Source: Anaerosomatales bacterium (lineage in GTDB: Bacteria > Actinomycetota > Coriobacteriia > Anaerosomatales > Anaerosomataceae). Taken from it: 64,000 bases of DNA. A model generated the notes under the pieces. It had not been told where the DNA came from. It made no database searches and worked only from the letters and a program-made list of their open reading frames with translations. The position numbers and the translations under genes are program-made. The stretch is from assembly GCA_030019445.1 (NCBI GenBank), contig JASEEU010000004.1:1-64000 (forward strand), read 5' to 3'. This document shows positions 47,330-50,858 of this stretch, one piece after another; the first letter of the stretch is position 1, and each line of letters begins with the position of its first letter.

Positions 47330-48664
47330 ATGCCCAGACTGTTCGGCACCGACGGCGTACGCGGCATAGCGAACGCCGATCTCACCCCTGAGCTTGCCTT
47401 CAAGCTCGGCGAGGCGGCAGGACACTTCCTCGGCGAACGCGGCCGGGGCCGCATCGTCGTCGGCATGGACACGCGGCGCAGCGGCGACATGCTCGAAGCC
47501 GCGCTGGTCGCGGGCGTGTGCTCGGGAGGCGCGGATGCCCTGCGGTGCGGCATCGTTCCCACGCCGGCGGTCGCGTACCTCACGCACGCCCTGGGTGCTG
47601 ACGGCGGCGTGGTCATCTCGGCATCACACAACCCCGCCGAGTACAACGGCATCAAGTTCTTCGACCGCGACGGCTTCAAGCTTCCCGATCTCGTGGAAGA
47701 CGAGATCGAGGAGTTCCTCGTGTCCGAGCGGGATTGGGACCGGCCGATCGGGGCGGGCGTGGGCAGGGCGATCGCGGTGCCTGACGCTGCCGAGCGCTAC
47801 ATCGTCCACGCTGTCGGGACCGTGCGCGGTGACTTCGCCGGCATGCGGATCGCCGTCGACTGCGGGCATGGCGCGAGCGCGCTCACGACGCCGGCCGCGC
47901 TGGAGCGGCTCGGTGCGGAGGTCGTCGCGACCAACTGCGACTGGAACGGCACCGACATCAACGACGGATGCGGTTCGACGCACCTGGGCGTCGTCGCCGA
48001 CCTCGTACGGGAGAGCGGTGCCGTTCTCGGCATCGCGCACGATGGAGACGCTGACCGCGTGCTCGCGGTGGACGAGACCGGCGCCGAGGTCGACGGTGAC
48101 GCGATCATGGCCATGTGCGCGCTCCACCTGCACGACCAGGGGACGCTCAAGGGCGATACGGTCGTCGCGACCGTGATGAGCAACCTGGGGCTCGAGGTCG
48201 CGCTCAAAGGTCACGGCATCACGGTGATCAAGACGAGGGTCGGCGACCGCTACGTCCTCGATCAGATGCGCACGTCCGGCGCGGTGCTCGGCGGCGAGCA
48301 GTCGGGGCACGTGATCTTCCTCGCGCACAACACGACCGGCGACGGCCTCGTGACCGCGCTCCAGCTCATCCAGATGGTGCGCGACGCAGGAGCGCCGCTC
48401 TCGGAGCTGCGGCAGGTCATGCCGCACTTCCCGCAGCACATGATGAACGTGAAGGTCGCCGATAAGACCCGGCTGGCGACCAGCGCTGCCGTGCGGGACG
48501 CGATCGCTGAAGCCGAGACCGAGCTCGGTGACGCCGGGCGCGTGCTGGTCCGCGCATCGGGCACCGAACCGCTCGTGCGGGTGATGGCCGAGGCCGCCGA
48601 CGAGGCGACCGCCGCGCGGATCGTCGACCGCCTGGCCGGGGTCGTCCGCGCGGAGCTCGGGTAG
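47330..48664 (+). CDS. glmM: Phosphoglucosamine mutase
   Basis: 444 residues. It converts glucosamine-6-phosphate to glucosamine-1-phosphate for peptidoglycan and UDP-GlcNAc. LFGTDGVRGIAN begins the protein, the phospho-serine loop is SASHNPAEYNGIKFF, the metal loop is DGDADR, the sugar-binding loop is GGEQSGH, and the phosphate site is RASGTEPLVRV. It directly precedes the glmS leader, so the first two steps of the hexosamine pathway are adjacent. Confidence 0.97.
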   Translation: MPRLFGTDGVRGIANADLTPELAFKLGEAAGHFLGERGRGRIVVGMDTRRSGDMLEAALVAGVCSGGADALRCGIVPTPAVAYLTHALGADGGVVISASHNPAEYNGIKFFDRDGFKLPDLVEDEIEEFLVSERDWDRPIGAGVGRAIAVPDAAERYIVHAVGTVRGDFAGMRIAVDCGHGASALTTPAALERLGAEVVATNCDWNGTDINDGCGSTHLGVVADLVRESGAVLGIAHDGDADRVLAVDETGAEVDGDAIMAMCALHLHDQGTLKGDTVVATVMSNLGLEVALKGHGITVIKTRVGDRYVLDQMRTSGAVLGGEQSGHVIFLAHNTTGDGLVTALQLIQMVRDAGAPLSELRQVMPHFPQHMMNVKVADKTRLATSAAVRDAIAEAETELGDAGRVLVRASGTEPLVRVMAEAADEATAARIVDRLAGVVRAELG

Positions 48665-48715: not shown

Positions 48716-48724
48716 TGGTAGAAT
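48716..48724 (+). promoter_or_regulatory. Possible extended -10 promoter for glmS
   Basis: TGGTAGAAT (48716-48724) is an extended -10 with no good -35 at 17 bp. It lies 60 bases upstream of the ribozyme cleavage site, which is the position expected for the glmS transcript start. Confidence 0.5.
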
Positions 48725-48782
48725 CGCAGCGACCTGTCGCACGCGACCGGAGGAGGGATGCGCGGCACGATGTCGCTCGGCA

Positions 48783-48935
48783 AGCGCCTGGCCTGACGCT
48801 CCGTCAGGTGACGAGGTGAGGGCTTATCGAAAGACTCGGCGGATGGCCCTCCGGCTCAACCCGGGGTCGAGACGGCGTCGACAAAGCCCGCGGGCGACCG
48901 CGGAGACAAAGCGACGGCGGACCGGGAACGCGCAT
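48783..48935 (+). ncRNA. glmS ribozyme: glmS ribozyme / riboswitch (glucosamine-6-phosphate activated)
   Basis: The glmS leader carries the conserved ribozyme core. The cleavage site is A48783|G48784 followed by GCGCC. The P1 stem is CCTGAC (48792-48797) and GTCAGG (48803-48808), then GACGAGG (48810-48816). P2 is GAGGGC (48818-48823) and GCCCTC (48846-48851). Between them lie TTATCGA and TCGGCGGATG, and CCGGCT follows. These match the textbook glmS ribozyme order and letters. Two ACAAAGC elements (48881 and 48906) lie in the less conserved P3/P4 region, whose 3' boundary is approximate. The ribozyme uses glucosamine-6-phosphate as cofactor and cleaves its own mRNA, so it shuts glmS off when product is abundant. 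The rest of the 367-bp spacer is a GC-rich linker with a small hairpin (48976-48992) and the GGAGGAGG ribosome site. Confidence 0.93.
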
Positions 48936-49031
48936 CGAGCATCGACGCGCCCGAGGGGAAGCGAACCCTCGTTCGAGCGGCGAGCAGCCGCTGATACCCC
49001 GCTACCACCACCTCACGGAGGAGGACTGCCC

Positions 49032-50858
<1,827 letters not shown>

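Follow-up and report, generated by a model that had tools for sequence, protein, structure and literature searches.

How is glmS controlled in a high-GC actinobacterium in which a spacer of 367 nt separates the gene from its neighbour glmM, and what does the RNA encoded in this spacer contribute? We addressed these questions in a window of 64,000 nt (the whole stretch of DNA that was analyzed; contig JASEEU010000004.1, positions 1 to 64,000), the host of which is a Coriobacteriia-like actinobacterium. The upstream gene glmM, encoding phosphoglucosamine mutase, can be found in the ORF list at 47330-48664 on the forward strand (TIGR01455, 554.5 bits, cut-off 447.55). The gene directly downstream of the spacer on the same strand is glmS (49032-50858), which encodes a glutamine--fructose-6-phosphate transaminase of 608 aa (TIGR01135, 848.7 bits, cut-off 418). 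A first-pass annotation of this DNA had proposed that the spacer houses a self-cleaving glmS ribozyme. Family membership, an intact core, genomic position and conservation by descent make it very probable that the 5' leader of glmS does contain a functional glmS ribozyme under product feedback. The ribozyme is another member of the known class RF00234; the novel leads are a Shine-Dalgarno (SD)-like element in the leader and, in a related family, the linkage of the ribozyme to nagB.

Results

Scanning the whole window with cmscan (Infernal) returned a match to RF00234 at 48772-48929 on the forward strand, which scored 90.8 bits (E 1.1e-19) against a gathering score of 37 bits for this family. 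The alignment is full-length (model positions 1-167 of 167), and no other match is present in the 2.09 Mb of the genome. Together with the TIGR01135 gene downstream, this match bears out the earlier placement of a glmS ribozyme 5' of glmS in a high-GC actinobacterium. The alignment predicts self-cleavage (A-1/G+1) between A48783 and G48784, the bond that had been named at first pass, and the catalytic RNA proper starts at 48784.

All of the core blocks that the first-pass annotation listed for 48783-48935 can be found there in order. These are AGCGCC with the scissile A|G (48783-48788), the two arms of P1 (48791-48798 and 48802-48809), GACGAGG (48810-48816) and, 3' of the latter, TTATCGA, TCGGCGGATG and CCGGCT. 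The conserved core block CGGCGG is present beside GACGAGG and AGCGCC, and CGCC at 48785-48788 matches GGCG inside TCGGCGGATG as expected of the P2.2 pseudoknot, judged by inspection and as complementarity alone. None of the 49 ribozymes of the window's order, and none of the 15 examined from a second Coriobacteriia family, f18, lacks A|GCGCC or GACGAGG. The outer P3/P4 domain had been described as GC-rich and diverged. It is GC-rich, but the model aligns throughout: non-standard pairs are few, P4 has a GNRA loop (GCGA, 48894-48897), and both ACAAAG segments are present. In pseudoknot-blind free folding of 48731-49040, the native fold was not the minimum-free-energy structure.

Transcription is predicted to start near 48731, as judged from an extended -10 element (TGG-TAGAAT, 48716-48724, forward strand) of the form TGnTAnnnT, which recurs, with hardly any variation in distance, in 46 of the 49 order leaders. 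A generic sigma-70 promoter scan showed no full consensus at the leader. The ribosome-binding site of glmS, GGAGGAGG, is located at 49018-49025 on the forward strand, 6 nt 5' of the ATG, and the gene's own site is normal in 44 of 48 loci. An open frame of 680 aa also runs from a GTG at 48816 through the ribozyme to the end of glmS (48816-50858). Since such frames are expected in GC-rich DNA, this one is probably an accident of the sequence.

The 5' fragment that cleavage would release contains an SD-like element, GGAGGAGGG (48749-48757, forward strand), recognized by its duplex with the 16S anti-SD and its conservation in 64 Coriobacteriia leaders. The standard 16S tail, GGCTGGATCACCTCCTTT, was found in the window's genome, and the purine element matches its complement. 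The best anti-SD duplex in the window leader reaches -14.7 kcal/mol, compared with -8.7 kcal/mol in shuffles. Across the 64 leaders, which come from related genomes and are hence not fully independent, the mean is -14.1 kcal/mol, compared with -9.2 kcal/mol in dinucleotide shuffles. A purine run of the GAAAGGAGG, GAGAGGAG or GAAGGGAGG type can be seen 5' of the cut at essentially every Coriobacteriia locus in the leader alignment, with a median distance of 30 nt 3' of the -10 box. Ungapped SD scores were above those of shuffled leaders in both the order (20.5 versus 14.3) and f18 (21.7 versus 16.1), and a control region 200 nt further upstream was at background (13.6). Plain folding of the leader gave a stability below that of shuffles. 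In genus g2 (L145-L148), where the glmM-glmS neighbourhood is conserved, the ribozyme and the leader SD are missing together; all that is left is a promoter with roughly 65-80 nt of leader behind it and one ribosome-binding site, that of glmS.

The leader SD is not general to structured leaders in this order, since cobalamin-riboswitch leaders are at background (11.2 versus 12.1 shuffled). TPP riboswitch leaders were meant as a further control, but nothing in the order scored above the cut-off. Many of the order's cobalamin aptamers (L243-L264, position 1500) start right after a -10-like hexamer (TACAAT, TATGAT or TACGAT), and these numerous riboswitches have almost no leader 5' of the aptamer. 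Nor does ribozyme control need a leader SD, as the element is absent from a further 30 ribozymes of actinobacteria, most of them from family f40 (14.9 versus 16.4 shuffled), and varies among single examples from Bacilli, Clostridia and Fusobacteria. Clostridia and their relatives carry longer SD-like versions further upstream (23.4 versus 16.0). Bacillota leaders such as L164 and L182 contain a stretch of up to 13 nt (AAAGGAGGTGATC) that is perfectly complementary to the 16S tail, 40-100 nt 5' of the cleavage site.

The leader SD might drive a short upstream ORF of 12 codons (MRGTMSLGKRLA followed by a stop; 48758-48796, forward strand), which overlaps the cleavage site and P1, and translation across the cleavage site might then modulate ribozyme folding. 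We consider this unlikely. An ATG does lie right behind the purine run in the window (1-4 nt from the element, depending on register) and weak upstream initiation is possible there; an ATG occupies the equivalent position, in frame with this one, in the sister genus g4, and short ORFs in some Clostridia leaders end at the cleavage site. However, start codons 4-10 nt past the element are depleted (3 of 64 seen versus 13.1 expected), stop positions are scattered among relatives from +11 to +269, and most codon differences in g4, by inspection, alter the amino acid. A conserved upstream ORF was thus rejected on the depletion of start codons and the unrelated places of the stops, and the ORF in the window is probably incidental.

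We give very little credence to a second function, an RNA switch in which the purine element pairs with the C-rich 3' strand of P2 (GCCCTCC) and keeps the ribozyme inactive. In the window, CCCTCC of P2 could pair with GGAGGAGGG, but there is no covariation across the order, and leaders pair no better with their own P2 than with those of other species (307 of 500 permutations were as good). In f18, moreover, the element is kept where the P2 strand reads CTGCCACGG, and its duplex with 16S (-14.8 kcal/mol) is far stronger than that with P2 (-6.0 kcal/mol). The permutations and the f18 duplex energies led us to reject this pairing.

The first-pass annotation regarded the ribozyme as unusual in an actinobacterial background, a view that our wider search contradicts. 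Of the 69 genomes that represent the window's order in the class-wide search, 49 carry it, or 49 of about 57 if only those with an orthologous glmS are counted. It is also present in 15 genomes of f18 and in 75 of 397 genomes of a phylum-wide sample, where it is spread over several families. For the phylum to which a Clostridium locus belongs, the count is 98 of 150 genomes. The 20 ribozyme-less genomes of the order comprise eight with an orthologous glmS, seven with a foreign-looking GlmS (51-53% identity) and five whose assemblies lack a full glmS match.

Coriobacteriia and other actinobacterial metagenome assemblies supply the nearest GlmS proteins in public genomes. A GlmS tree unites the order in a clade (support 1.0) of 48 ribozyme-bearing and seven ribozyme-less members in which the losses are nested. 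The f18 proteins are placed beside Eggerthellaceae, which is probably the identity of this family, and both the order and f18 group with other actinobacterial GlmS and not with Bacillota (support 0.73 at the deepest node involved). This placement points to a ribozyme that is old, vertically inherited and repeatedly lost; recent transfer from Firmicutes was rejected, as the tree shows no sign of it. That the ribozyme is non-functional, being decayed or recently transferred, is hardly credible. Scores in the order do range from 62.8 to 111.5 bits, and several relatives have lost the ribozyme, but the window's match is full-length with its core intact, the ribozyme is retained by most genomes with an orthologous glmS, and the tree puts the genes among actinobacterial homologues.

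In several genomes of the window's family (L152-L157), GlmS is ~50-53% identical, falls outside the actinobacterial GlmS clade and is encoded without a ribozyme; here glmS has apparently been swapped for a foreign copy. In family f3 (L149 and L158), the ribozyme-less glmS leaders extend roughly 130-220 nt past the -10 box and possibly hold another regulatory RNA. No Rfam match was seen in the L149 leader.

In f18 (L130-L144, alignment A1), the last ~45 nt 5' of the cut form a hairpin of ten pairs that has the SD-like element in its loop and extends with its 3' arm right up to the site of cleavage. In this alignment, 92.8% of cells are paired, compared with 32-57% in slid controls, five pairs are changed on both sides, and the covariation score was reached by no shuffle. 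This f18 hairpin is stable and its loop GGA-rich, which might suggest a CsrA binding site, but CsrA (PF02599) is absent from 22 of 22 Coriobacteriia and was found in the four Bacillota genomes tested alongside, which refutes CsrA binding for Coriobacteriia at the sensitivity of this search and leaves the reading with practically no probability.

Seven f18 genomes carry a ribozyme directly 5' of nagB, which encodes glucosamine-6-phosphate (GlcN6P) deaminase (TIGR00502, 381 bits, cut-off 237). The loci are L135, L137, L139, L141, L142, L144 and L140 (4588-5567). A GlmU-C-like acetyltransferase gene follows in some of them and glmM, in the same direction, in two; in G397 the order is ribozyme-glmS-ribozyme-nagB-acetyltransferase-glmM. 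The six genomes in which nagB has the only copy still encode GlmS elsewhere. An off-switch triggered by GlcN6P would be illogical on a deaminase whose role is catabolic alone; within an operon of UDP-GlcNAc-pathway genes, it would fit a NagB that works toward GlcN6P synthesis. Cleavage at nagB may instead have a different output. The titles and abstracts that we searched contained no report of nagB- or Eggerthella-linked glmS ribozymes or of self-cleaving ribozymes in Coriobacteriia.

Discussion

Feedback on glmS by GlcN6P is the natural reading of this locus. By analogy with the family, GlcN6P at high concentration would bind a pre-folded pocket and serve as coenzyme, and the RNA would then cut between A48783 and G48784. 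The downstream mRNA, with its 5'-OH, would decay 5'-to-3', most likely through RNase J, and the net effect would be repression of GlmS by its own product. In B. subtilis, GlcN6P-dependent cleavage of glmS leaves a 5'-OH mRNA that is a substrate of RNase J1 and is degraded by it (PMC3997798); a separate 2-nt trimming of the 5' end at the glmS cleavage site has also been described (PMC11780869). RNase J (TIGR00649) is encoded in the window's genome (G000; 584 bits), and 67 of the order's 69 genomes have matches.

The leader could potentially add to this effect. The roughly 50 nt 5' of the cut would hold a ribosome-binding sequence that, class-wide, has no start codon at a working distance. A 30S subunit held near the 5' end by this leader SD would stabilise the mRNA, and cleavage would both strip the protective end and expose a fresh one. 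We propose a stabiliser role on the precedent of ribosome-binding sites and hairpins near the 5' ends of mRNAs in B. subtilis, including aprE, and in mycobacteria. That the window's leader element is a 5' mRNA stabiliser of the STAB-SD kind, removed by cleavage, is a serious possibility that we put just short of an even chance. We advance the wider form of this idea more tentatively: in Coriobacteriia and many Clostridia, the start-less SD might act as a removable cap that is cut off for attack by RNase J, and f18 might use the same module on a nagB operon whose NagB serves GlcN6P synthesis. No report linking the glmS ribozyme with STAB-SD was found in the titles and abstracts searched.

These findings extend the ribozyme class to an actinobacterial order in which its presence is evidently both ancient and common. 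The start-less SD bears on how self-cleavage lowers expression, since loss of a stabiliser may count besides the new 5'-OH end. If the copies at nagB are a guide, a GlcN6P sensor can be re-used for another GlcN6P enzyme, and the linkage opens a direct test of the direction in which that enzyme works physiologically.

In comparison with the RF00234 type known from B. subtilis, B. anthracis and T. tengcongensis, the window's ribozyme has the same core, cleavage site, P1-P4 architecture and position upstream of glmS, together with RNase J. It differs in its GC-rich arms, its Coriobacteriia-like genome and the conserved SD, start-less across the class, 5' of the cleavage site. In mycobacteria, the polypurine stabiliser of katG lies four bases 5' of its own start codon, and stability requires the translation of at least 20 codons (PMC2358910). 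The window's element is likewise an SD-like polypurine in an actinobacterium, with a putative stabiliser role, but it is located far upstream of the gene and has no conserved ORF behind it. In B. subtilis, a hairpin or ribosome-binding site near the 5' end can protect mRNA over long distances downstream (PMC3997798), and the aprE leader has a 5' stem-loop and an SD (PMC11805744); stabilisers of the STAB-SD and aprE types go back to Agaisse and Lereclus (1996) and Hambraeus (2002), as summarized in these two papers. Like them, the glmS leaders carry an SD-like sequence near the inferred 5' end; across the class a usable start codon is generally missing, with the nearby ATG making the window's own leader less clear-cut, and in f18, as in aprE, this sequence is combined with a 5' stem-loop. 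In contrast to these leaders, the element at glmS, a putative stabiliser, lies 5' of a self-cleavage site and could therefore be removable on demand.
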